Assembly (NCBI GenBank): GCA_946902875.1
Contig: OX336338.1
Location: 11,957,971 to 12,021,970, forward strand
DNA: 64,000 bases
Source of the DNA: Nematopogon swammerdamellus
Lineage: Eukaryota > Arthropoda > Insecta > Lepidoptera > Adelidae
Reading direction: 5' to 3'
Below the pieces are notes generated by a model. It searched no databases, was not told where the DNA came from, and saw only the letters and a program-made list of their open reading frames with translations. The translations under genes and the position numbers were made by a program. This document shows, in pieces, positions 1,950 to 48,907 of this stretch. Within the stretch, counting starts at the first letter, position 1; every line of letters starts with the position of its first letter.

Positions 1950-2355
1950 TTTTTTTTTTTTTATGTAATCCGGTATGGGTGGCTGAGTCGGAGAGGCCAA
2001 AGCACATGCTCTAACCAGCCAATATCACCTCCGAGAAGGTAGGTGCCATACCGGAGACTTCCCTGGATTGCTGGCTATACTGGACTAGAGGAGAACACAA
2101 CCGAGGTTGCTTGCGGCCATCTTACATCCATTACGGTGGTACCAACCCAGTTGGCTACAATTTGAGCCTACCACCTAGTAAGGGGCAAGGGAAGGGACCT
2201 ACAGTTTTACACCGGTTCCGAACGGTGAAGCAGCGGGTGTAGGTATGCACGTAAATTTTTTCGTCAGAAAAAACTCATTGGTACACGCCGACCGGATTCG
2301 AACCACGGACCTCCCGTGAGAAGCCGATGCCCAAACCACTCGGCCACCAGCCGCT
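1950..2355 (-). mobile_element. tRNA-headed SINE (family B), full length
   Basis: Read on the minus strand it begins with a tRNA Leu/Ser-like head: A box TGGCCGAGTGG and B box GGTTCGAATCC. A body containing GTAAAACTGTAGGTCCCTTC and GGTTGGTACCACCG follows, then an A tail (T run at 1950-1962). The other good copies are at 33691-34085, 38073-38438 and 49644-50042. Confidence 0.85.
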
Positions 2356-2679
2356 TTCCTTGTTCGCTTTCCTTGCTTGCTTACATCATTTTCCTTGTTT
2401 CCTTGATATTTTATTAGCAATGGGGTTTAAAATTGTTTTTCTATTATCATAATTTTGTAAGATGATGTTCAAATTTAATTAGCCTAACATTGCTCTGGTA
2501 CTCTGAGCCTAATGTTAATGTTGTTGAGTTGTTACATAGATCGATATTAATTCTTTATTTCTTAGCTCCACAAATTATTAAATGACTACCTGCAGTTTAA
2601 AGCCTTATACGAGTATCCTTGGTGTTTTTTTCATCTTCAAGCACAGCACTAGGATTAGTACCAGGATTGTGGCACTTGG
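2356..2679. other. No feature recognised
   Basis: AT-rich sequence between a SINE and a LINE fragment; no gene, hairpin or repeat stood out. Confidence 0.5.
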
Positions 2680-3115
2680 AGATCCGTTGTGTCTGTCTAC
2701 CCCGTTCACGCCTCTCTTGAAGGACCCAAAACAGCCGTACTTGGGGGAAATATGTGGGCAGGGAGAGCGTTCCAGAGTTTACCAGTTCTGTAGAGAAAAT
2801 ATCTGCAGAACCGATTGGTAGGTACGCATCCGTCCGTGGTAAGTCCAGCGTATAGGGATACAATCCCTGCCCAGTGGCCGTCGTACGGCGGTGGAAAGGG
2901 GACAGCGGGATCGCTCCTCCGAGTACTCCCCATAGAATAAGCGATAGAGCAGAGCACGTTTATGGCACTGACATTCCTACGAAGTTGCAGTAATTGACAG
3001 TGGATGACACCTCGGTCGCAAGGCACGACGTTGAATGGAGTCCAGAGGCCAAAGATTGCCAAAGGCGCAAGCTGGTATTTAGCTGAGCCATCCCACAAGT
3101 GATATGACATCTGAT
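2680..3115 (-). pseudogene. 3' end of a CR1/Jockey-like LINE reverse-transcriptase ORF
   Basis: The minus-strand frames resemble the extreme C-terminus of lepidopteran non-LTR reverse transcriptases: a TNRFCRYF-like segment, then YRTGKLWNALPAHIFPP. Catalytic domains are absent (5' truncated) and the reading is split between frames. A related fragment with the same ending (HRTGKLLTALPAHIFPP) is at 54880-55130. Clade assignment is approximate. Confidence 0.7.
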
Positions 3116-3639
3116 ATACTTACGTCTTTATTTCATACGTCAGTTCCGTAGTGCCTGAATTTCGATTATGTCACCTTATCCAAGACCTTTATCTATGACC
3201 CCTTCATGCAACCCGAAATCTATCTAGCTAGGACGTATACGCCTACGCCTATAAAAATATGTCAAAATTCTCCATATACCTATAGTTCTGGACACCACAT
3301 AAAATGAGCCCTCGCCGCTCCGCCAGTAGGTACCTTCAAGAATATCTACGTTCATACCTGTTTAATCTGTTTGCTGAGATATAAATTGTATATTATTGGC
3401 TCATCTTCCTATGTTCTTGGTCCGGAAATAATTGAAATTCCAACAGGCTCGAACGTTCACTGACTACTTTTTTACTTATTTTTATGGTATACGTAACAAG
3501 TAGATACCTGTTATTATTCTCAACGAATATTTCACTTCAAATTATTACATGCGATAATTATTTAAGTATGTAGGTATGTATATAATGTATGTATACTATA
3601 CCACTACTCCCTCGAGCACATCGTACCTATGTAGGTACA
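3116..3639. other. AT-rich intergenic DNA, no feature recognised
   Basis: Contains TAGGTA/TATGTA simple sequence only. Confidence 0.45.
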
Positions 3640-3821
3640 ATATTAAACAAGTCTGCGAACGTTGTTCACATACATAGGATTCCGTAGCCATTTCCTACTT
3701 GTCCATCACCCCTGCCCGTTACACACCCCCGCGTTGGACTTCACCCCCGCGCCGCGCGTCCTCACGGACGCTTCTACTCTCAGAAGATACAAACTTTAAA
3801 ATAGTTTCATGCCGTAAGCAC
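3640..3821. repeat. Dispersed repeat fragment shared with 16965-17290
   Basis: Both places carry TTGTTCACA followed by TTCCGTAGCCA, a variable GC-rich middle, then AACTT-AAAATAGTTT-CATGCCGTAAG. The GC-rich centres differ, so the shared ends flank a hypervariable core. The family is not identified. Confidence 0.55.
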
Positions 3822-4209
3822 TTTTTTTTTTGGAAACTGACACGGTTGGCTACATCATTTACAACATCCGTGATGTCAGCCCATAACACCGGGTGAACTA
3901 GGTGCCATGTCAGTGCTTCCCTTCGATCGTGCCGGCTACACTGAACTGTACGGAAAACACTAACTATTTACATAGCCGTTTCGACCGACGTTTCATTAAG
4001 TGCGTTGGTACCAACCCGGGCGGGTTGAACCCTACCAACGAGTTAGGTAGGAAGGGAAGGGACCTACAGTTTTACGTGGAATCCGAAGCACGGTCAGCCT
4101 CCAACGGTCGAGCGGTCACCCATCCAAGTACCTACTGACCGCGCCCAGCGTTGCTTATCAATCAATAGCAACAGTCGATTGTCTGCACTACTGAGCTATC
4201 GAGGCTGAC
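3822..4209 (-). mobile_element. SINE family A with chimeric tRNA/5S-rRNA-like head, full length
   Basis: Reading on the minus strand: ATAGCTCAGT (tRNA A-box-like), then AAGCAACGCTGGGCGCGGTC continuing into TGGATGGGTGACCGC, which matches the internal promoter segment of 5S rRNA (a short insertion interrupts it in this copy). A B-box-like region, the body shared with family B, and an A tail (T run 3822-3831) follow. The mixed head is unusual; see findings. Confidence 0.8.
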
Positions 4210-4264
4210 AAACACTAAATAGACTCCGTTAATTTTTTTATGTATTCGTCAATTTGTTATAAAA

Positions 4265-4680
4265 ATCAAGTTATATGGGGCGCCAGTGTCAATGCCTTGG
4301 GACACCACGGGCTATATAAGTGTTGGTCGTCTCTCCCGCCACACAGGCTGCTGTCTTCAGCAGACTTCCCTGGCTTACTGCAGCCACAAGAGATCAGCCG
4401 GTCTGACGGCAAGAGACCTGACGGCTTGTCTTTGGTTCCGTGGCAACAGGGAAAGGCGCTCGTGTGGGACGCAACATGCGTCGACCTACATCCTACATTC
4501 CTCTTTCCTCCCGTTCGGTCGGGGTGCAGCGACTACAGCCGCCGCCAACAAGGCGTATGTTTTCGTGGCGTTCGCCGTCGAGACCCTCGGTGCGTGGGCA
4601 CCAGAATCAAAAGAGTTCGTCGAAAAGGTGGGCGGTATCTAGACTTGATCGCCTTTTTAGGCTTCTGTAGAGAATTTATA
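4265..4680 (+). pseudogene. Decayed retroelement C-terminal domain, PD-(D/E)XK-like motif
   Basis: One frame gives SDGKRPDGLSLVPWQQGKAL then VWDATCVD (about 4402-4485). After a frameshift a second frame gives FVAFAVETLGAWAPES (about 4560-4610). These blocks belong to a domain family seen with reverse-transcriptase elements in many invertebrate genomes. RPDG followed about 12 residues later by WDxT resembles a restriction-like nuclease core. At least two frame breaks make it a remnant. The nuclease reading is inference. Related copies at 26757-27110 and 30440-30935. Confidence 0.6.
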
Positions 4681-4858
4681 GTAACTTTATTATAATAAAC
4701 CTCAAATAATCTTTATTATTTTAAGTCATTGTATAGGTAGGTACCTAGACACTTGAAAACCTTTTCACAGCAACCTTTTATTGAACCTTTTTTTTAGCAA
4801 TTAAAATCGACAATATTTCTAATGAGTTTAACAAAATTTCATCGTTTGCAATATTTTT

Positions 4859-5175
4859 AACCCCCGACGAAAAAAGAGGGGTATTATAAGTTTAACGTGT
4901 GTGTATGGGTGTGTCTGTCTGTGGCATCGTAGCTCCCAAACGGAAGGACCGATTTGGATGCGGGTTTTTTTTATTGTAAAGCTGGTTTAATCGGGATGGA
5001 CGGTAGCTAGGTTTGTAATGAAATAATCAAGTAATTAATCAAAAAATAATGCTCTTAAGAATGGACGGGTTATGGATATGTAAATAAAATATGCGCGGGA
5101 ATTTACTTAGCGGACCACCGACTCGCAAGTAAATACTTAAACGGAAATTATTTTTGAATTTTGATGGGTCGGGGG
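4859..5175 (+). repeat. Dispersed lepidopteran repeat (ACCCCCGACG...GAGGGG type)
   Basis: Begins ACCCCCGACGAAAAAAGAGG and contains GTGTCTGTCTGTGGCATCGT and GGACCGATTTGGATGCGG. Inverted fragments of the same family are at 36950-37090, 49190-49330 and 62600-62720. Probably the 3' part of a LINE or a derived SINE; exact class unknown. Confidence 0.6.
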
Positions 5176-5989
5176 TTTTTATTAGTAGGTGGTATTTCAA
5201 AGAATGTGTATGTAATGATAATTATACCATATGAGTGTGAAGAGGTACTTTTTGCGAAATGCAATTTCACCCAATCATTCTTGCACACAACAACGCATTA
5301 CAGCATTATGCGTACAAGGTGTTCATTCACCGGAGTAAGCGATACATTAGGCAGATGATAATTTTTATAAATGATAGATAAGTAGAACTTAAATGAAATT
5401 ATAATTTTTATGTACTTTTAAATCATCCATCAAAAGATTGATAGAACGCTCTGTATGTAAACTATGAAAATATTTATGCAAAATATCCCTTAATAATGTA
5501 AGTAAGTAGATACCTATATATTCTTAGCGTAATACCAAACATGAAACCACGACCAAATGCTACCATATCGCTGGTTATGGTATCTATAGTTATAGCTATG
5601 TATCTATCTATCTATGGTTATGATGGCTCTCGTGCTCGCTGCGGGGCAGCGGCTACGGCGGCGGCGGGGGCGGGCGGGGGCGGACCGGTTCGCTGAGATT
5701 TCTGATTCAGCCGTGACCTTCAAACGAAAGTGAATCTGGTGCCGGTCGTCGTTCCTCACTCCTAACATACATTCAGCGCGGCTGGCGTGCTACTTTGACA
5801 TAGGCAGCCTCATAGATACGAGTACATAGGTGCATAGCGTCACGCCTGTTTCCCAATGGCGTATAGGCAGACACAACGGATCTTCACTTGTCACGGTACT
5901 GACGCAATATCTCTGCCGCCGCCTCTTCCAATCTCATAATGTTCCTCATTTATAGGCACTTGGGCCTTTTTGAGCACATGCCCCATCTG
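5176..5989. other. AT-rich DNA with one small GC patch
   Basis: A GGCGGCGGCGGGGG-type patch at about 5640-5690. No coding frame or repeat was recognised. Confidence 0.4.
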
Positions 5990-6196
5990 TACCCTAATCA
6001 CGAGATTTAACCTACACCGCGTACTACGCTACGCCGCCCGTGTTCTCCGTATCATTTTGTATGGAGAAACGGAGCAGTGCCTCTAGTGATAGATTTGCGA
6101 ACTTCGTTTCTCCATACAAAATGATGCTGAGGAGAACACGCCGCGGCGGCGGCGTAGCGTAGTACGCGGTGTAGGTTAAATCTCGTGATAAGGGTA
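5990..6196. mobile_element. Short TIR MITE with TA flanks
   Basis: Ends TACCCTAATCACGAG and CTCGTGATAAGGGTA are inverted copies. The complementarity extends about 80 bases inward on each side (CCTACACCGCGTACTACGCT against its complement; TCATTTTGTATGGAGAAAC against its complement). TA at both ends suits a Tc1/mariner-type target duplication. No coding capacity. Confidence 0.75.
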
Positions 6197-7109
6197 TACT
6201 GGTCCGGTTACACGCGTCTAGGGCGACTCTTCCCGATTCTTCCAGTCACATTCGTTCCATAAATATCTTTTGTTAGTCTCCTATCAACTTCTTCGTCTTT
6301 ACATTCGCAGGACCGACCGATGTGTGACATTGGTCGCATGTCGCATCGCACGCATGGTCGCGCAGCCAGAAGTGCTGTCAGCGAATGAGAGTGCAAAAAA
6401 GAGTTCGAGTTTCTTCGCGCTTCGCGCATAGTTTTGGTTCTCTGCTCGAGACTTTACTCATGTGACATGTGGCATAGCCTTATAGGTAATAAAGCTATCC
6501 CAAGATACACATCGATACATACGAGTAGTTCCAATGCGCACTAACTCAAATAAACAGTAAACTTTGCATTACATTTTATTTGGAACTTATGTACTTTTTT
6601 TTATTTCACCCAATACAGATTACATAGGTAAGTGAAACTGAACGGTTTTGGAACTATACATAACTTTTTCATATTTCAAAATTTTAAATTTTTTCGCTAC
6701 TTTTGTAGGAAGAAAGGGGAAAAAAGTTCATCACAAAATAAAAAATCGTAGAGTAAAAGTTGTTTAGTTTCCGGTGTAGGACCACCCTCTTCCTGGAACC
6801 ACCATCACCAAATATAAAAATTATTTACACTGATAAAGATAAAAAAATAAATAAAAACAAAGATAATTTTTGAAATGTTGTCTGTTTGTATTCTCGTATC
6901 ACATAAAAACCACTGACCCAATTCGGATGGAGGTTTGAGAAAAATATAGGGCTTATCGGAGTAACATAGGCTTTACATCATCACGCCTTATTCTTATTGA
7001 GCAGAGCGCAGGGGTTCGGAAGTGACCTCAGTCGGAGAAAATTCGCCACTCGGTTCGCTTCGGTTTGTGCTCATGTTATATTTGATCAAATACTCAACCT
7101 ATATAAATC
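6197..7109. other. Intergenic DNA, degraded repeats only
   Basis: AT-rich. At about 6960-7080 there is a fragment containing TTGAGCAGAGC and GTTCGGAAGTGA, of a kind repeated at 8690-8760, 36420-36460 and 54700-54740. Otherwise nothing recognised. Confidence 0.4.
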
Positions 7110-17821: not shown

Positions 17822-20800
17822 TTATGAGGTGATGGGTCGGAAGGACTTCTTGCGGTGCGTGTCGCAATGCTTTAGCATGTGATCCTTGCGGATGAAGCCC
17901 TTGCCGCAGTAGTGGCAGGCGAAGGGCTTGGTGCCGGAGTGCAGGCACATGTGCCGCCTCAGATCCGTCTTGTGGTTGAAGGACTTGGGGCACTGCTGGC
18001 AGCGGAAGGGCTTGATGCCGGCGTGCTTGGAAAAGTGCTCCTCATAGGTGAGGTCGTCCGGGAAGCGCTTGCCGCAGCGCTCGCACTTAAAGGGCTTGGC
18101 GCCCGAGTGGAAGGACTTGTTGTGCTGCGTCAGGTAGCACGCCTTGTTGAACGTCTTGTCGCACTCGAAGCACTTGTGCACCGTTTTCGGCACGCTCTTG
18201 TTGCTCTCTGCGAGAGGCGGCCCCGGCACCGTCGACGACACCGACGGGGACCCGCCGCTCTCGTACTCCACCGTCGCGCTCTCGGGGCTCGCCGGAGACT
18301 TCATCTGCTTCTCATAATTCTCCTTATTCGCGTAATCCATAATATCTTCAATTTTCATTATTTGAAGCTCCGCAGTATTCGAGGACGGTTCTTCTTTGAT
18401 TACTTTTGAAATGGCGTACTCAAGGTTACCCATTTTAATCTCATTGTTGTTCGGTAACAAATCTACCTTCATAGTTTTCGCGGCATAACCGTAATCGTAC
18501 ACAGCCCTTTGATCGTTCAATCCTTCGTTATATTGCATGGAGCTGTTTTCCGAGTCTATTATCAGGAAGGTCTCTACTGACTCTTCGCTGGGGCTGGGAC
18601 CCCCCACGTTAGGTGATGGTAGGTAGTTAGGAATGAAAATGCCGAATCTCTGAGATTGAATCTGAGCGAAGCTCGGTAGGCGGCATCCGCTAGACTCGTT
18701 CGACGTTTCAATTTCCGTAACTTCGGTCATTTCTGGCATAGTAAGTTCACCAAAAGTAACCGGACTGGCTATATGCAGGTTGCTGATAGCCATATCCATA
18801 ACGTGGGGGGCCATCCCGTTTGGGTAGTTCGGAGCTATACTCTGCTGAAAATTCTGACCCAAATATAATGGGGTGTGCGTGGGGTCCGGGACCGTAGGCA
18901 CCAAAGGATCCGTAGACCTCGGGCTGTACGGATTGACTGCCAAATGACTGAACGGCGGCAGCGTGTGCGGAGTAATTTGCGGAGTACTCTGCGGCAGGGC
19001 TGGAGTTGAAATATTGCTGGTTGATACTGATAGCAGGCCCCTCATATGGTGACTTTGTGAAACAGAGGGACCTGCTTCCCCGTTTGGGGGATTTCCCGTT
19101 GACGAATTGGGACTGGGTTTCGCTCCTTGATGACTGTTTTCGTTGGGATTTCCTATCCCCGGCGGTTGACTACCTATGTTGAGGGGATGTGTGCCTACTT
19201 GATGCGGCAGCGGGTGGTTAGCTAGAGGATTATTACTCATAAAATTATTATCTATGTTACCCTGTTGTAGATGCGAATACGGTGACTTGGACTGGATCGA
19301 GGAAGCGCGGTGCGTTCGATCATATGTCTGCGAGGGGTACGGAGACTGCAGTGCTGCCTCGTCCACACCGCGGCCGTCGTCGCCAGACCCAGGACTGTGC
19401 GTGTTGGAGTCCGACGGCGGCGGGCCACGGTTCTGGTCGCGGCTGGGGTGGTGGTGGTTGCTTATCGGGAGCGTCGCTGGATCTGGTTGGCCCGATGATC
19501 TTACTGCGTTCTTGTGAAGTGTAGTGTTATAATGTCTCTTTAGATGGCCAGAACTAGTGAACCATTTGTTGCAGGCGGTGCAGTTGTACGTTTTGGGACG
19601 TCTTGCTTCATTTGATTTCCAATTAGCACCCTTACCGCCGATAGATGGCAAGGCCGTAGAGGTAGGGTTGGCAGTTTGCGTGCTAGTTATCTGCGGGGCG
19701 GGTGAATCATAGGGTCTGTACGGCGGCTTCATATCTTGATTTGTTGATGCTGTGTTGCCATACTCCTGGATTGCTAGTGGGGGCATCTGTACACCTGGGT
19801 AGATTTTCTGATCAGGATGTAAAAATTGCTTCTGATCATGGTGCCCAGGTACAAAAGACTTCTCTTGTGCATAGGGAAATTTATGTTCAGAATGGTACAT
19901 TTTCGCATCGACTGCGAAAGGTTTCTGGTCCGAAAACATTTTCTGTTCTTTGAAGAGAGCTGAATCTCCGTTCATCGGTGGATTACTGTAAATCTTTTGA
20001 TTTTCCCAGGGTAACATTGGGGGTACAGCTCTTGGGTTTTCTCTCACTTGCACGGATGTGGGCTCAAAGTTGGTATTTCCCGTTTGGTCTGCTTCAGTAC
20101 CAGGATATACAACTTTCTGAGAGTCCAAATCTAATATGTCAGACGACTCCTCTTGCTCTTCTTTAACTTTGATTTCGCCGCCGGGAAAACCAGCGTACTG
20201 CTTTGTTGGAAACTGTTGAATATGTTGGTACTGGCCTTGTGTGGGTGCGTTGTGGGCGGTGTTGCAGTGCTCCGTGAGCTGCATGGCGGAATCACAGACG
20301 AATCCACACTTGTCGCACTGGTTGGGCGAGGGGGAGGGCGTGGGTTGGTTTAGCGGCTGCGTGTAGAGCGGTGACGAAGATGACACTTGTGACACTCGCT
20401 CTTGTACGCTGTAGGGGTGGAAACGTGATGGCTTGTGGTAGTCCTGGTTGTACTGCGACTGCTCCCAGCTCAGTTGTTCCGAGTGCTGGTTCTGAGAGAA
20501 GGGCGCGTGGCTATATTGAGCATTGTTGAACTGCGTGCTTGGCGAGAACGTAGTCTGATCGGGATTCTGGTAGGGCGAAGGCGCGCTGTGATAACTTTGT
20601 GGAGTTGCCGGGTGCGGAAACTGAGTCGACGTCTCCGGAGTCGCCCTATGCTGGAACTCGGGGCTCGGCTTCGTAATCATGTTGTCGCTCGAGTCGGCCG
20701 GCGCCGATACCGTCGTCTCGCTCTTCACTCTGGACGCGTTATTGTTGTCGGCGTCATTCTGAGAGTTCTGTGTGCCCCATTTCACGTACAAATTTTCTTT

Positions 20801-20914
20801 ATGATATTGAAGATGTACTTCTAGCGAGTCGATCGAATCTAAGTACAAGTCGCAAACCTTGCAGTGGTAGTCCCTCGAAGGCAGTGTCGACGAAACGGCG
20901 TTGCTGTTAGCCAT
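17822..20914 (-). CDS. zld: Zelda/Vielfaltig-type C2H2 zinc-finger pioneer transcription factor, single coding exon
   Basis: Uninterrupted 1030-residue frame. In Drosophila, Zelda is the pioneer factor that opens chromatin at CAGGTAG-type sites and activates the zygotic genome, so this product is expected to be nuclear and DNA-binding. Visible fingers: N-terminal C18-C21-H34-H38; C200-C203-H216-H221; a JAZ-type finger C445-C448-H461-H467 (spacing x5) followed by a conserved-looking SSGQPDPATLPIS stretch; and a C-terminal cluster of four fingers (C915/C918/H931/H936; C944/C947/H960/H964; C972/C975/H988/H992; C1000/C1003/H1016/H1020) joined by HSGAKPF, HAGIKPF and HSGTKPF linkers. Between them lie long Pro/Ser/Gln/Asn-rich segments, an acidic patch near 724-741, and SUMO-like sites VKSE (63-66), VKEE (250-253) and IKEE (839-842). 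The start is fixed by an in-frame TAA directly before the ATG. The architecture is the known Zelda one; the assignment rests on recognition, not a search. The protein is shorter than the ~1600-residue fly protein. Alternative: another multi-finger factor, less likely. Confidence 0.85.
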   Translation of the reverse strand: MANSNAVSSTLPSRDYHCKVCDLYLDSIDSLEVHLQYHKENLYVKWGTQNSQNDADNNNASRVKSETTVSAPADSSDNMITKPSPEFQHRATPETSTQFPHPATPQSYHSAPSPYQNPDQTTFSPSTQFNNAQYSHAPFSQNQHSEQLSWEQSQYNQDYHKPSRFHPYSVQERVSQVSSSSPLYTQPLNQPTPSPSPNQCDKCGFVCDSAMQLTEHCNTAHNAPTQGQYQHIQQFPTKQYAGFPGGEIKVKEEQEESSDILDLDSQKVVYPGTEADQTGNTNFEPTSVQVRENPRAVPPMLPWENQKIYSNPPMNGDSALFKEQKMFSDQKPFAVDAKMYHSEHKFPYAQEKSFVPGHHDQKQFLHPDQKIYPGVQMPPLAIQEYGNTASTNQDMKPPYRPYDSPAPQITSTQTANPTSTALPSIGGKGANWKSNEARRPKTYNCTACNKWFTSSGHLKRHYNTTLHKNAVRSSGQPDPATLPISNHHHPSRDQNRGPPPSDSNTHSPGSGDDGRGVDEAALQSPYPSQTYDRTHRASSIQSKSPYSHLQQGNIDNNFMSNNPLANHPLPHQVGTHPLNIGSQPPGIGNPNENSHQGAKPSPNSSTGNPPNGEAGPSVSQSHHMRGLLSVSTSNISTPALPQSTPQITPHTLPPFSHLAVNPYSPRSTDPLVPTVPDPTHTPLYLGQNFQQSIAPNYPNGMAPHVMDMAISNLHIASPVTFGELTMPEMTEVTEIETSNESSGCRLPSFAQIQSQRFGIFIPNYLPSPNVGGPSPSEESVETFLIIDSENSSMQYNEGLNDQRAVYDYGYAAKTMKVDLLPNNNEIKMGNLEYAISKVIKEEPSSNTAELQIMKIEDIMDYANKENYEKQMKSPASPESATVEYESGGSPSVSSTVPGPPLAESNKSVPKTVHKCFECDKTFNKACYLTQHNKSFHSGAKPFKCERCGKRFPDDLTYEEHFSKHAGIKPFRCQQCPKSFNHKTDLRRHMCLHSGTKPFACHYCGKGFIRKDHMLKHCDTHRKKSFRPITS

Positions 20915-26295: not shown

Positions 26296-27764
26296 CTAGC
26301 TGAGCCCGCGGCTCCGCTCGCGTGAAATTCGTATTCCAAAGAAGAATGTAAGTAACTAAGGGCCAGGCCGAAGGCCGAGCTGCGTTCAGGTAATCGATAA
26401 ACCTTCTTGAAGAAAGTAACTAACTAAGGGCGAGGCCGAAGGCCGAGCTGCGTTCAGGAAGACGATAAACCTTCTGGAAGACAGGAAGGAACTGAGTGCG
26501 AGGCCGAAGGCCGAGCTGCGTTCAGGTAAACCAAAAACCCTCTTCCGCCTTCGGGCCTCGCCCTTAAAGACTTCCTTTCTTCGATAGAATATAATATCGT
26601 TTACTCAATCTATTTATTTCATAAAAATAAAAAAGTAATATTAATAACTAAAGAATTAAACCTACCTCACAAACATTAAAATAACTATCAAAACAGGCAT
26701 TTTCAAATGTTCTTAGAGCACTTGCGGCATTACCCCGCTGGATGGCAAGGCTTACCCTTTAAATGAAGTACATAAGCCCTTGATGGCGGGACACCAGTTG
26801 CGTCAACCAGCTCAAGCCTCTTTTGGCTTCACTGCTCCACGGACCGAGGGTTTCAACCGCAAACGCAACAAATTCGAAATCTTGAATTATATTTCTATAT
26901 TTGGTGCGTTTGAGGCTCTCCGCCCCAGCCTCGGCCGCGCCAGCCGCTCTTGAAGATGTCCTAACGTGACTTGGAGCCAATGTGAGAACAAAAGTGGCGT
27001 CCCACATCAAAGAACTACCCTTAGTCCATGGCACTAAGGTGATAGCATCGGGCCTCTTGCCATCCAGCCGGGAATAACCGCGAGGTTCTAGGATGCACGG
27101 TATATTTGCCGTTAGAAGCGTGGACTATATAATAAAATTTAAATTAAATTAACTCAATCTTAATATTAATTAACTTTATTCGAGATGGTTTAGCTTCTTC
27201 CTGAACGCAGCTCGGCCTTCGGCCTCGCCCTTAGTTACTTGCTTTCTTCGAGATGGTTTATCATTTGCCAGAACGTAGCTCGGCCTTCGGCCTCGCCTTA
27301 GTTGCTTACTTTCTTCAAGATGGTTTAGCTTCTTCCTGAACGCAGCTCGGCCTTCGGCCTCGCCCTTAGTTACTTGCTTTCTTCGAGATGGTTTTTCAAT
27401 TATCCGAACGTAGCTCGGCCTTCGGCCTCGCCTTAGTTACTTACTTTCTTCAAGATGGTTTAGCTTCTTCCTGAACGCAGCTCGGCCTGCGGCCTCTCCC
27501 ATAGTTACTTACTTTCTTCGAGAAGGTTTATGGTCTTCCAGAATAGAGCTCGGCCTTCGGCCTCGCCCTTAGTTACTTACTTTCTTCAAGAATGTTTTTC
27601 TTCTTCCTGAACTCAGCTCCGCCTTCCGCCTCGCCCTTAGTTACTTTCATCGAGAAAGAATATCGTTTACGTGAGCGCAGATCCGCCTTCGGGCCCGCCT
27701 TTAGTTACTTACTTTCTTTTTTTTAAATACGAATTTCACGCGAGCGAAGCCGCGGGCAACAGAT
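26296..27764. mobile_element. Foldback-like TIR element with ~70-bp subterminal repeats
   Basis: The ends are inverted copies: CTAGCTGAGCCCGCGGCTCC on the left, CGAGCGAAGCCGCGGGCAAC on the right, both adjoining TGAAATTCGTATT. Inside each arm lie tandem units of about 70 bp containing CTCGGCCTTCGGCCTCGCCC, three forward on the left and about eight inverted on the right. The centre carries a minus-strand remnant of a retroelement-type protein. An opposed relative occupies 30165-31380. Confidence 0.75.
26757..27110 (-). pseudogene. Retroelement-type domain remnant inside the foldback element
   Basis: The minus-strand frame reads DGKRPDAITLVPWTKGSS, LMWDATFVLTLAPSH, EFVAFAVETLGPWSSEAK. These are the same conserved blocks as at 4265-4680, in the same order. 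A preceding LTANIPCILEP segment extends the homology upstream. At about 115 residues with no partner domain, it looks like a captured fragment rather than a working enzyme. Confidence 0.6.
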
Positions 27765-30110: not shown

Positions 30111-30164
30111 TGTATCGCTTAGTCGCCGTTTTTTTTATGGGAACTGATGCCATCGGACGGAAAC

Positions 30165-31380
30165 CATCTCGAAGAAAGCAAGTAACTAAGGGCGAGGCCG
30201 TAGGCCGAGCTGCGTTCAGGAAGAAGGTAAACATTTTTGAAGAAAGTAAGTAACTAAGGCGAGGCCGAAGGCCGAGCTACGTTCTAACAAATGATAAACC
30301 ATCTCAAAGAAAGCAAGCAACTAAGGGCGAGGCCAAAGGCCGAGCTGCGTTCAGGAAGAAGCTAAACCACCTCGAATACAGTTCATTAATATTAAGATTG
30401 AGTTAATTTAATTTAAATTTTATTATAAAGTCCACACTTCTGACGGCAAATATACCGTGCATCCTAGAACCTCGCGGTTATTCCCGGCTGGATGACAAGA
30501 GGCCCGATGCTATCACCTTAGTGCCATGGACTAAGGGTAGTTCTATGGTGTGGGACGCCACTTGTGTTCTCACATTGGCTCCAAGTCACGTTAGGACATC
30601 TTCAAGAGCGGCTGGCGCGGGCGCGGCCGAGGCTGGGGCGGAGAGCCTCTTACGTTTGTATAATGTATTGTATAATGTATTGTAACGCAACAAATATATC
30701 AATATAATTCAAGATTTCGAATTTGTTGCGTTTGCGGTGGAAACCCTCGGTCCGTGGAGCAGTGAAGCCAAAAGAGGCTTTGGCCTCTGCTGGTTGACGC
30801 AACTGGTGTCCCGCCATCAAGGGCTTATGTACTTCATTCAAAGGGTAAGCCTTGCCATCCAGCGGGGTAATGCCGCAAGTGCTCTAAGAACATTTGAAAA
30901 TGCCCGTTTTGAAAGTTATTTTAATGTTTGTTAGTTAGGTTTTAATTCTTTAGTTATTAATATTACTTTTTTATTTTTATGAAATAAATAGATTGAGTAA
31001 ACGATATTACATATATTCTATCGAAGAAAGGAAGTCTTTAAGGGCGAGGCCCGAAGGCGGAAGAGTGTTTTTGGTTTACCTGAACGCAACTCGGCCTTCG
31101 GCCTCGCACTTAGTTCCTTCCTTTCTTCCAGAAGGTTTATCGTCTTCCTGAACGCAGCTCGGCCTTCGACCTCGCCCTTACTTACTTCCTTTATTTGAGA
31201 AAGGTTTAACGTTTACCTGAAAGCAGCTCGGCCTCCGGCCTCGCTCTTATTTAGTTACTTTCTTTGAGAAGGTTTATCGATTACCTGAACGCAGCTCGGC
31301 CTTCGGCCTCGCCCTTAGTTACTTACATTCTTCTTTGGAATACGAATTTCATGCGAGCAAAGCCGCGGGCAACAGCTAGT
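30165..31380. mobile_element. Second foldback-like element, opposed to 26296-27764
   Basis: Reverse complement of most of 26296-27764: GGGCGAGGCCGTAGGCCGAG units on the left, CTCGGCCTTCGGCCTCGC units on the right, and the terminal AGCCGCGGGCAACAGCTAGT at 31361-31380. The left terminal ~45 bp are missing. Together the two elements make a potential 1.2-kb stem with a 2.4-kb loop. Confidence 0.7.
30440..30935 (+). pseudogene. Retroelement-type domain remnant (plus copy) with internal duplication
   Basis: The frame carries KRPDAITLVPWTKGSS, VWDATCVLTLAPSH, and after a break FVAFAVETLGPWSSEAK and LAIQRGNAASALRTFENA. A duplicated TATAATGTATTGTA at 30658-30683 and a stop interrupt it. It diverges slightly from the inverted copy at 26757-27110. 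Confidence 0.6.
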
Positions 31381-35445: not shown

Positions 35446-35769
35446 AAGTATAATAATAAAAACATATAACATAATAAATTAATAATATTCTAGAATATTT
35501 GAAAAATATTATGATTTACAAGGTCTGTAACTATATCTAGCGCACCCTTGACCGACCCCTGCTTCGTCCAGGTCAGCTGGATGTCGAGCGTTGCCTCTGG
35601 TGCCAAAATGGACCAACTAAAATGATATAAAAACGCACACGAGCGCATAATCGCTTAATAATTACACAGCGGCAGGCGTTCAGACATTCCGCCAATTCTT
35701 AGAATCACGTCCGACGAATACGTTTTCATTAGTGCATCCTGACTGCTAGTCCACTGAGCTGACGGGAGT

Positions 35770-36285
35770 CGACGTCATCATTAATACGTACTCGTTAACA
35801 ACATCAACTGCGTATTGGGCTGCCTTTGGAAAGTTAAAATTCGCCCTGCAAAACCTTCCGCAAAATTTAAAGACCCGTATATATGACCATATGACCAGTG
35901 TCTCCTCCCGGTTATGTATGACGCACGGGTGTGAAACGTGGACGGTCGCCGGTGTAAGGTTGAAATTTGCCCAGCGAGCAATGGAGCTACGTGATATGGC
36001 GCGTAACGAGGCAATCCGCCGACGTATCAAATTAGTCGATACTGGACACCGGGTGGCTAAACTCAAGCGGCAGTGGGCTGGGCACGTCAGCCGAACAGAC
36101 GACGACCGTTGGAGTAACCGTGTCCTACACTGGCGGCCGTGGACAGGAAAACAGAGTGTGGGAAGACGACATCAAGGACGTCGGCGGAAAGCAATGGTTC
36201 CGTACCGCTGAAGGCCGCGAGGACTGGAGGAAAATCAGAGAGGCGTATGTCCAGCAGTGGACGCTTACACGCTGACTGTCTGCTT
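35770..36285 (+). pseudogene. RTE-like LINE 3' ORF fragment, degraded
   Basis: The frame reads CETWTVAGVRLKFAQRAMEL, AKLKRQWAGHVSRTDDDRWS, HWRPWTGKQSVGRR, then breaks. The 3' end GCGTATGTCCAGCAGTGGAC is retained. This is the same C-terminal region as in the cleaner copy at 48435-48907, with frameshifts. Confidence 0.75.
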
Positions 36286-43527: not shown

Positions 43528-43534
43528 CCTATAC

Positions 43535-46295
43535 CACAGCATATATATGGCTAAAGCAGTATGGAAACTACGTACAAAACGATCGAAACGACGCACTCAC
43601 ACACACGCACGCCTCAACAAGGCCCCGAAGCGAATGTCGCAAACAATCAGTCGCGGGTGCCGCGTCCGAGTGGTCGTGTTTGTTTTTGTTGCATGCGCCA
43701 CCCACGGACAGTCCGCGATCTTTTAGAATGCAAAAAAATGTTTACAAACGTTTTTCGACTGTTGTCACTTTATATTAACTTTTGACAAATATTGACAACT
43801 TTTGTCAACTTTTCTTATCTTTTGCCAACTTCTGCCACCTTTTGTCAACTTTTATCGACTGTTGTCAACTCTTGTCAAGTTTGTAAACTTTTGAGAACTT
43901 TTGTCAACTGTCAATAACTTATGTCAACTCTTGTCAACTTTTGTCAACTTTTCTCATCTTTTGCAAACTTCTGTCACCTTTTGTCAACTTTTATCGACTG
44001 TTGTCAAGTTTTGTAAACTTTTGAGAACTTTTGCCACCTCTCGGTAACTTATGTCAACTCTTGTCAACTTTTGTCAACTTTTCTTATCTTTGCCCACTTC
44101 TGTCACCTTTTGTCAACTTTTATCGACTGTTGTCAACTCTTGTCAATGTTTGTCAACCTTGGTCAACTTTTGTCAACTTTCGTGAACATTTGTCAACTTT
44201 TGTCATCTTTTGTCAAATTTTATCGACTGTTATCAACTATTGTCAATGTTTATCAACCTTGGTCAACTTTTGTCAACTTTCGTCAACTTTTGTCAACTTT
44301 CGTCAACTTTTGTCATTTTTTGTCAACTTTTATCGACTGTTGTCAACCCTTGTCAATGTTTGTCAACCTTGGTCAACTTTTGTCAACTTTCGTCAACATT
44401 TGTCAACTTTTGTCATCTTTTGTCAACTTTTATCGACTGTTGTCAACTCTTGTCAATGTTTGTTAACCTTTGTCGGCTTTTGTCTACTTTTATCATCTTT
44501 TGTCAACTTTTATCGACCTGTGTCAACTTTTATCGACTGTTGTCAACTCGTGTCAATGTCAACCTAACCTTGGTCAACTTTTGTCAACTTTCGTCAACAT
44601 TTGTCATCTTTGTCAACTTTTATCGACTGTTGTCAACTCTTGTGGTTGTTCACCACCTTAGTCAACTTTCGTCAACATTTTGTCATCTTTTTTTCAACGT
44701 TTGTCAACTTTTGTATACTTTTCTCGACTTTTGTGAACTTATAGCCACTTTCATCATCTTTTGTCAACTTTTGCCAACTTCTCTCAGCTTTTGTCAGCTT
44801 TTATCATATTTTAACCGCTGTTGTCAACTTTTGTCACTTTTATGAACTTTTGTCAGCTTTCGTTAACAAGGAGTTGACAAAAGTTGACAAGAGTTTACAT
44901 AAGTTGACTAAAGTTGACAAGAGTTAACGAAAGTTGACAAACTGGACAAAAGATGGGAAAAGTTGACGAAAGTTGACAAACAGCTGACATAAGTTGAAAA
45001 ACGTTGACAAAATATGAAAAAAGTTGACAATACTTAGTTGACATTAATTAACAATAGTTGACGAAAGTTGACAAACGTTGACAAGAGTTGACAAAAGTTC
45101 ACGAAAGCTGACAAAAGTTCATAAAAGTGACAGAACTTGGCAAAAGTTGACAATAGTGGTTAAAAGTTGACAGAAGTTAGTAAAAGTTGACAAAAGATGA
45201 CGAAAGTTGACAAAAGTTGACGGAAGCTGGCCTAAGTTCATAAAAGTGACAGAAGTTGGCAAAAGTTGACAAAAATTTCCGAAAGTTGACAACAGTCGTT
45301 TAAATTTTACAAAAGCTGATAGAAGTTTGCAAAAATTGACAAAAGATGACGAAATTGGCTATAAGTTAACAAAAGTCGACAAAAGCCATAAAAGTAGACA
45401 AACGTTGACGAAAGTTGACAAAAGTTGACAAAAGTTGACGAAAGTTGACAAAAGTTGGCAAATGTTGACAAAAGTTGACAAGAGTTGACATAAGTTACCG
45501 AGAGTTGATAAAAGTTCTCAAAAGTTTACAAAACTTGACAAGAGTTGACAACAGTCGATAAAAGTTGGCAAAAGATGAGAAAAGTTGATAAAAGATGACG
45601 AAAGTGGCTATAATTTCACAAAAATCGAGAAAAATAGACAAAAGTTGACAAACATTGACAAAAGATAACAAAAGTCGACAAATGTTGACGAAAGTTGACA
45701 AAAGTTGACCAAGGTTGACAAAGAGTTGACAACAGTGGATAAAAGTTGACAAAAGATGACAAATGTTGACGAAAGTTGACAAAAGTTGACCAAGGTTGAC
45801 AAACATTGACAAGAGTTGACAACAGTCGATGAAAGTTGACAAAAGATGACAAAAGTTGACAAATGTTGACGAAAGCTGACAAAAGTTTACCAAGGTTGAC
45901 AAACATTGACAAGACTTGACAACAGTCGATAAAAGTTGACAAAAGATGACTGAAATTGGCAAAAGATGAGAAAAGTTGACAAACATTTACAATGGTTGAC
46001 AAGAGCTGACAAAAGTTGTAAACAATTTACAAAAGTTAATAAAAGTTGACAAAAGACGAGAAAAGTATATCAATTCATATTTATAGCAACCACGTTTTGA
46101 ACTTATTATTGATGATTGATTATATTGATTATTTGATCATTACATTACAGAACCTAAATAAATGTTTTAATAAATAATAATTTTACAATTTTACAAAAAA
46201 TTTGATTGACATCCCTAACGCTCCAATGGAGCGTAGGTACTTATTTTTACAAATAGGCCTAGTTTCCATACTGCTTTAGCCATATATATGCTGTG
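43535..46295. mobile_element. Complete TIR element with head-to-head 10-bp repeat arrays
   Basis: Perfect 36-bp TIRs: 43535-43570 (CACAGCATATATATGGCTAA...) and 46260-46295 (its complement), flanked by identical 7-bp direct repeats CCTATAC (43528-43534 and 46296-46302). Between them are about 210 bp of unique sequence on each side, a 1.1-kb array of TGTCAACTTT units on the left (about 43780-44868) and a 1.2-kb array of the complement AAAGTTGACA on the right (about 44871-46060). A longer periodicity of about 100-140 bp is marked by TATCGACTGT. The frames here (up to 211 codons) arise because 30 bp encode a 10-residue repeat in every frame; they are not genes. Confidence 0.9.
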
Positions 46296-46655
46296 CCTAT
46301 ACTGTGTATCTTACTGTGAAAACCAACAAACAAGTAAGCAGATGAGATAAACAACATTTGTACTGTAATTCAGAGCCGGTTTGGTATTATGTTCTGCTCT
46401 GTTTAATACTTTTAAATAATCAAATTTAATTGAAGAAGAAGAGAAGATTGGCTTTTGAACAGCATTTTACACTTTAAGTTAGAATGTCGTTAGAATGGTC
46501 ACAACAACATAATAGAAATTTGTAAGCAGTGATAAAAATCAAAGTTCGTACCTACCAGGGGGAAATTAGTTCTGATATATTAACTTACCCTGGCTGGCAG
46601 TGCTGCGGTACACTATGCGTGCTTAGATAAATTAATAATCCATTCTGTTGTTTTT

Positions 46656-47804: not shown

Positions 47805-48415
47805 CACACACACATCCCACACGCTGAACCCCGACAATCGGGGTAAGCAGAGTAATCGAAGTTGTGCTGCCAGTAGGTACTCTTGTAAATTACAGCACAA
47901 CACCGACCACCACGTTTAGCAATGTATTCGGACAAGACAACTATCAAGTAGTGTAGTACCTAACTGATAGACTGCTGCAAGACTGTCAGTACTTGGATGG
48001 GTGACCGCTGACCGTTGGAGGCTGACCGAGGTTCGGATTCCTCGTAAAACTGTAGGTCCCTTCCCTCCTAATCTTACTTGGTGGTAGGGTTTAACCCGGT
48101 CGGGTTGGTACCACCGCACTGAATAAAACGTCGGTCTAAACGGCTATGTAAATAGTTTGTGTTTTCCGACCAGTTCAGTGTAGCCGGCACGATCAAAGGG
48201 GGAAGCACTGACATGGCACCTAGTTCACCCGGTGTTATGGGCTGACATCACGGACGTTGTAGGTGATGTAGCCAACCGTGTCAGTTTCCATAAAAAAAAA
48301 AAGTCTCGGTGGAAGGACCGTGCCAAGGTGAGAGGTAGGTAGCTAGCCTAGAAGGATGCAGTGGGGCTATTCTTTTTAAATACCGGCCCCGCTATTCTTT
48401 TTAAAACATGCTAAG
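47805..48415 (-). mobile_element. SINE-like family E copy interrupted by a family A SINE
   Basis: Left part (CACGCTGAACCCCGACAATC to about 47982) and right part (GTCTCGGTGGAAGGACCGTG to 48415) are contiguous in the intact copy at 29755-30110. The interruption is a family A SINE, so family A was active after this copy landed. Confidence 0.75.
47983..48302 (+). mobile_element. SINE family A, 5' truncated at the 5S-like segment, nested
   Basis: Begins GTCAGTACTTGGATGGGTGA, retains GGTTCGGATTCCTCG, the body and an A11 tail. Short flanking AAGACT/AAGTCT may be an eroded target duplication. Confidence 0.8.
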
Positions 48416-48434
48416 AGCAAGCTAAGCCAAGCTA

Positions 48435-48907
48435 TCTTTTCATCCTCCATCCCACAGTCATTGAAGACGAAGGTCTTCAATCAGTGCGTTCTGCCGGTAA
48501 TGACGTACGGAGCGGAAACGTGGACCCTGACGATGGGCCTGGTCCACAAATTTAAAGTCGCTCAGCGAGCTATGGAAAGAGCAATGCTCGGCATTTCTTT
48601 GACCGATAAAATCCGTAACAACGTGATACGTCAAAGAACTAAGGTAGTCGACATTCCTAAGAAAATAAGCAAGCTGAAGTGGCAGTGGGCTGGGCACATC
48701 TGTCGCAGACCCGACAACCGATGGGGTAGACGGGTGCTCGAATGGAGGCCACGTACAAGCAAACGTAGCGTGGGACGCCCCCCGGCTAGGTGGACAGATG
48801 ACCTAAAAAAGGTAGCCGGGAGTGGATGGATGAGAAGAGCGGAAGACCGCGTGTGGTGGCGTGCCTTGGGAGAGGCCTATGTCCAGCAGTGGACCGATAC
48901 AGGCTGA
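48435..48907 (+). pseudogene. RTE-like LINE: open C-terminal part of the reverse-transcriptase ORF
   Basis: An uninterrupted frame of about 155 residues: VLPVMTYGAETWTL, KVAQRAMERAMLGIS, KLKWQWAGHICRRPDNRWG, RSVGRPPARWTDDL, ALGEAYVQQWTDTG, stop, then a (TGA)n microsatellite at 48904-48920. This is the post-polymerase tail of RTE/BovB-like elements. Endonuclease and polymerase domains are absent (5' truncation), typical of target-primed insertion. The intact frame suggests a young copy. It is too short to be autonomous. Confidence 0.85.

Follow-up and report, generated by a model that had tools for sequence, protein, structure and literature searches.

The 64,000-nucleotide stretch analysed here (the window; contig OX336338.1 of assembly GCA_946902875.1, forward-strand positions 11,957,971 to 12,021,970, from the lepidopteran Nematopogon swammerdamellus) contains at 43535 to 46295 an element that is one copy of a young, multi-copy transposon family and that carries no gene. 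The element ends in short terminal inverted repeats (TIRs), is flanked by a 7-bp target-site duplication (TSD), and has a body in which a 10-bp unit, repeated in two opposed arrays, takes up almost all the length. We consider it probable, if well short of certain, that this is a foldback transposon mobilized in trans by a P-superfamily transposase, and that its arrays arose by slippage or unequal exchange. On this explanation a non-autonomous, foldback-type cut-and-paste element, present in some 300 copies in a lepidopteran genome, would be recognized at its 36-bp TIR by a transposase of the 7-bp (1360/Galileo) kind; as the element has no visible transposase, that enzyme would act in trans. 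One reason for retaining the arrays may be that a series of sites close to the ends binds additional transposase, as is suggested for Galileo by binding tests.

The element and its family

The two ends of the window copy are identical at 36 of 36 bases and diverge from base 37, while CCTATAC stands on both flanks and the next base outward is unlike, bearing out the perfect TIRs and 7-bp duplication reported by the first-pass annotation. Allowing up to three mismatches, a search with the TIR's first 25 bases hit two places in the window (0.00 expected), both of them TIRs. The same annotation had described the body as two opposed arrays meeting near 44870, and Tandem Repeats Finder (TRF) delimited just such a pair at a period of 10, with 111.6 copies (70% match) on the left and 119.3 copies (69% match) on the right. 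Matches to TGTCAACTTT with at most one mismatch number 54 in the forward orientation, none lying right of 44870, and 54 in the reverse orientation, none lying left of it. Gap-free units of exactly 10 bases account for 102 of 113 units on the left and 109 of 120 on the right (partial end units counted), and in parts of both arms the same succession of about ten unit variants recurs, which makes up a ~100-bp higher-order repeat. The foldback does not run on unbroken from the tips: unrelated subterminal stretches of 176 bp (left) and 193 bp (right) separate TIR from array, their longest common match being 10 bp, and the G+C content is 49.5% at 43535-43746 and 26.6% at 46067-46295. The longest reading frames run through the arrays (up to 219 amino acids) or across the left end (112 amino acids); no transposase was seen in the frames of the window element, which were not scanned against protein families. 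The parts of the element are listed in Table 1.

The first-pass annotation had suggested a search of the genome for further copies. In the host assembly (699 Mb, 39 contigs) a 34-base core of the TIR, with up to three mismatches, gave 324 forward and 320 reverse matches and a reversed-pattern control gave none; the family comprises roughly 300 copies. We examined 59 stretches, namely the window copy, 20 ranked by similarity to its left end and 38 chosen by TIR pattern, the last from at least 44 pairs among the matches listed (100 exact places), of which three were already sampled and three were omitted. Leaving aside L017, which is without a right end, and L022, which was extracted incompletely, 57 copies have two TIRs. 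Such TIRs, together with a duplication of fixed length in independent copies, characterize a cut-and-paste TIR transposon, and an exact 7-bp duplication flanks 56 of the 57 (38 of 38 in the TIR-pattern set), with no other length found; the earlier claim that the block inserted as a unit therefore holds. The 55 copies without long inserts measure 1695-4092 bp (median 2857); 54 of them have the duplication, in 53 distinct versions. Just 2 of their 110 TIR ends have one mismatch, although this near-perfection is partly a matter of selection because the copies were found by their TIRs.

The family is young and recently mobile. Compared pairwise, the 55 copies differ at either end by a median of 1.5%, with divergence of up to 21% in a few left ends. 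Two copies, L015 and L023, have no substitution in 2823 aligned bases and a single 10-bp gap, yet their duplications differ (CCAATAC and TCTTAAC), which indicates that the family moved very recently; L009 and L014 differ by 2 substitutions in 2227 bases. Both pairs are separate, very recent insertions. The sole two-TIR copy without matching 7-bp flanks, L010, resembles the chimeric copies of Galileo described in passages of PMC3573991. Its right flank joined to the TIR matched the genome at L010 only, and thus there is no reciprocal partner with that flank.

Table 1. Parts of the window element and its flanks (window coordinates)
Feature	Position	Strand	Evidence
Left target-site duplication, CCTATAC	43528..43534		flank comparison
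Left 36-bp TIR	43535..43570	+	36/36 against the other end; 34-base core 324 + 320 genome-wide, control 0
Left subterminal stretch, unique, GC-richer	43571..43746	+	no right-end counterpart; common to other copies
Forward array of TGTCAACTTT, ~111 units, ~100-bp higher-order repeats	43747..44860	+	TRF
Junction of both arrays	44861..44871		same junction type in 15/19 copies
Reverse array, AAAGTTGACA on + strand, ~119 units	44872..46066	-	TRF
Right subterminal stretch, AT-rich	46067..46259	+	end comparison, composition
Right 36-bp TIR	46260..46295	-	36/36 identity; window search
Right target-site duplication, CCTATAC	46296..46302		flank comparison

The opposed arrays and their possible role

A gapped alignment of the two arms in the same sense gave 79% identity over 819 columns with a score of 334, compared with 52.7 ± 9.9 (largest 92) in 200 shuffles of 10-base blocks, and the arms are thus inverted copies of one array. 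Such long, repetitive inverted arms are the structure of a foldback-type element, and the arrays are opposed in all 19 copies compared. In 15 of these the junction is like that of the window copy with at most small changes; the other four (L012, L018, L021 and L026, of which L021 and L026 are alike) have a rearranged centre. Similarity between arms, measured in 18 of the 55 copies, is 0.649 for left with left and 0.662 for right with right, in contrast with 0.329 for a left arm with its own right arm and 0.339 with the right arms of others. As left arms resemble the right arm of their own copy no more than the right arms of others, there was one inversion, before the family spread, and no noticeable homogenization of the arms within copies since. 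Both arms therefore descend, already paired in inverse orientation, from a single progenitor.

Since then each arm has gained and lost 10-bp units independently of the other. The number of forward units does not correlate with that of reverse units (r = 0.06, 55 copies); at up to one mismatch they range from 37 to 128 and from 2 to 65, respectively. Among gaps of at least 8 bp (n = 1799, from 171 overlapping and hence not independent pairs of 19 copies) 62% have a length exactly divisible by 10 and 84% deviate from a multiple of 10 by no more than 1 bp. The copy with two near-perfect reverse units, L033, is complete, so long symmetric arms are not required in every copy.

By analogy with the THAP sites of Galileo and the internal 10-bp sites of the P element, the 10-bp unit may be a candidate transposase site. 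In vitro the THAP domain of Galileo binds at 63-80 bp from the tip and at two further sites within the arm repeats, according to passages of PMC3688188. A bolder proposal, which we regard as unlikely, is that a lepidopteran branch of P independently evolved a Galileo-like foldback in which each 10-bp repeat would be one THAP site, up to about 100 spaced sites per end forming an antenna for a transposase acting in trans. It could be argued instead, with a chance that we place a little below even, that the arrays are carried along passively: an ordinary short-TIR element would have captured a minisatellite that drifts in length and plays no part in transposition. The freely varying arm lengths, the scarcity of near-perfect reverse units in the complete copy L033 and the prevalence of unit-step gaps, which fit slippage, all favour passive arrays, but both unit orientations are kept in 57 of 57 two-TIR copies, in a sample not designed for array-free copies. 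It should be emphasized that passive arrays are compatible with a P partner and compete with the role of the arrays only. Runs of TTT recur every 10 bases in the arrays, which would make the DNA phased and possibly curved. The first-pass annotation had also proposed that transcription would yield a long hairpin RNA; as regards folding capacity this appears thermodynamically plausible, the predicted minimum free energy of the element being -1231 against -630 ± 15 in 12 shuffles (z = -40).

Candidate transposases

Mutator-superfamily transposons make duplications of about 8-11 bp and Transib makes duplications of 5 bp. The 7 bp of this family, with no copy at 8 or 9, match neither, despite a CACAG tip in the case of Transib. 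Duplications of 7 or 8 bp at palindromic targets typify the P superfamily, and at the 38 TIR-pattern sites the target is palindromic about the centre of the duplication (complementarity 0.373 versus 0.254 ± 0.029 at other centres), with pyrimidine/purine pairing of duplication positions 2 and 6 at 92% versus 47% elsewhere. The P-group motif ANAGT/ACTNT fits best at offset 0 of the duplication (3.0 of 8 versus 2.03 ± 0.33, largest other 2.66), and the Galileo consensus also fits best at the duplication (2.05 of 6 versus 1.51 ± 0.23). An oriented target motif, CCTATAC, seen in the first 18 sites was an artefact, as the query had carried that flank. In passages of the relevant papers, the duplication is 7 bp for 1360, whose group has palindromic targets, and 8 bp for P (PMC3276498), 7 or 8 bp for Galileo (PMC4168063), 8 bp for the P element, with 31-bp TIRs and internal 10-bp transposase sites (PMC7776569), 9 bp for FB of Drosophila melanogaster (PMC7642927), and 9 bp for Tm1 and commonly for Mutator (PMC3169594). 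Duplication length and the palindromic target thus point to the P superfamily, on the 1360/Galileo side; membership of Galileo itself is unproven, and membership of the FB family fails because the duplication is 7 bp rather than 9.

Potential sources of such an enzyme are present in the host, where PF12017 had 37 matches, compared with none in 14 control genomes. Many lie in long open frames, several in frames of 744-949 amino acids that include sets of equal score and frame length (for example L069, L070 and L071), and the three P proteins scanned have P-type RNase H and GTP-binding domains. In the one P family compared, two copies showed 100% identity in the stretches read (801 and 813 bases), and P elements too therefore look recently active in this genome.

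Several results weigh against a P partner, or against the part assigned to the arrays. The P-group motif fits modestly, and to set it on a duplication of 7 bp is our interpretation of the paper's wording. The ratios of substitutions to indels in the arrays (214:30 and 231:48) are only somewhat above the 77:20 of a 68-bp array elsewhere in the window that is unrelated to them, so a constraint on phase is unsupported. Among the pieces read, no element bearing the TIRs of the array family could be shown to have a transposase gene. Within about 5 kb around each of three P transposases neither a TIR (the best candidate had 15 mismatches in 36 bases) nor an array was seen, and the 821-amino-acid P family, the sole one with a located end, has a terminus unlike that of the array family. 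Only 1 of the 37 P matches lies within 25 kb of a TIR among the TIR matches listed, which were GG-prefixed ones from 135 in all and all 94 AC-prefixed ones. Six exact TIRs depart from the family at the fourth base after GGAAAC, none of them within 300 kb of a P match, and on contigs C1-C3 none of five P matches is within 800 kb of an exact TIR. The one P match within 25 kb of a listed TIR, in a 796-amino-acid open frame, is enclosed by a 21.4-kb TIR pair with an exact duplication, CCTTTAC (C6:22512235-22533634). The left end of this pair begins with about 140 bp of the array family, continues with a short stretch of unrecognized sequence and then has 16 bases identical to the end of the 821-amino-acid P family; from these end sequences it is likelier a P element nested in an array copy.

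Long copies were also considered as an autonomous partner and rejected. One of 6.8 kb (L029) is an array copy holding a nested element at 2158-6852 with ends of its own, CACAGTGGGG...CCCCACTGTG, and a 5-bp duplication, CGTCG. The nested element has an uninterrupted frame of 751 amino acids (3320-5575, plus strand) that matches PDB 6pqn, a putative DNA-mediated transposase that we take to be Transib, at E 2e-167 and has no Pfam match. A 12.2-kb candidate (L031 and L032) has broken frames that by eye look related to that of L029; both of these also count against the proposed partner. The stretch without a right end (L017) matches the left end of the family (194 columns, 96.4%), continues into unrelated DNA with no right TIR in 6 kb, and is best read as a truncated end.

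The lack of an autonomous partner among the pieces read would suit a foldback moved by some other, or a new, superfamily that makes 7-bp duplications; we hold this to be unlikely without being negligible, as both the target motif, modestly, and the duplication length agree with the P group and the genome is rich in P-type matches. More improbable is movement of the same foldback by a Mutator/Phantom-type (Mutator-like element, MULE) transposase, a mechanism put forward for many foldbacks, Tetris and Tm1 among them. The unit does contain TTGAC, a putative WRKY-type zinc-finger site, and MULE genes were not sought in the genome. Against such a transposase is the 7-bp duplication in 56 of 57 copies, compared with 9 bp in FB (PMC7642927), 9 bp in Tm1 (PMC3169594) and 8-10 bp in Tetris in the passages available. 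Finally, that the inversion is a fold-over of one array in the assembly, an artefact considered by the first-pass annotation, is practically inconceivable, given a base-by-base mirror identity of only 30% about the element's centre, subterminal ends that differ, opposed arrays with their own duplications in 56 copies, and the spread of the window copy's junction over many contigs.

Known systems, neighbouring features and significance

The window element works like Galileo or FB. The comparisons that follow are with passages of the papers cited. Likeness to Galileo lies in the 7-bp duplication, conserved ends of about 40 bp, many copies without transposase, and long repetitive inverted arms whose lengths change independently (PMC4168063, PMC3573991, PMC3688188). 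Galileo's arms, however, are inverted from the tip for 0.5-1.2 kb, with internal repeats, where present, of about 140 or 210 bp, whereas here, with ends compared by description, the tip inversion is 36 bp and is followed by unrelated subterminal stretches and arrays of a 10-bp unit. The likeness to FB drawn by the first-pass annotation stands as to structure, both having mirrored blocks of short tandem repeats in variable number, but not as to the duplication (PMC7642927); the 467-479-bp inverted ends, five 27-31-bp repeats per block and middle region of FB are likewise absent. Ends again being compared by description, 1360/Hoppel shares the 7-bp duplication and its group's palindromic targets (PMC3276498) and the P element is similar in its 31-bp TIRs and internal 10-bp transposase sites (PMC7776569), but no arrays are described for either. 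Tetris/DAIBAM of D. virilis is also a non-autonomous foldback with tandem repeats in its arms and an unknown partner, but has a 220-bp unit and an 8-10-bp duplication (PMC4079207).

No P-superfamily foldback in Lepidoptera was described in the titles, abstract openings and passages searched, and the part of a monarch paper available names foldback and Galileo in its reference list only. As repeat databases, like most subscription papers, lay outside this search, an existing database entry is possible. The unit and TIR strings did not occur in the paper texts searched, and there was no exact match for the TIR in a prokaryote collection or for TIR or unit in viral contigs.

Elsewhere in the window, a minus-strand zinc-finger frame of 1030 amino acids at 17822-20914 is zelda (zld), with its best relative (72%) in Epargyreus clarus and with named entries among the best 34 matches that are all Lepidoptera, which supports a lepidopteran host. 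The transposon copy is situated some 23 kb upstream of this gene. Another inverted tandem-repeat arrangement is formed by a 68-bp unit (GCTCGGCCTTCGGCCTCGC core) in four arrays of both orientations (26341-26544, 27173-27718, 30161-30376 and 31067-31332). Two similar frames, at 35746-36211 and 48380-48907, look by eye like retroelement fragments and have no Pfam match at 0.01.

On the question of why foldbacks keep long repetitive arms, some of the arm repeats in Galileo are reported to contain additional transposase sites (passages of PMC3688188). The roughly 300 close copies described here, in which unit number varies freely, constitute a natural dosage series for relating array length to mobility. 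Dispersed through the genome, such long inverted arrays would also be likely substrates for ectopic recombination.
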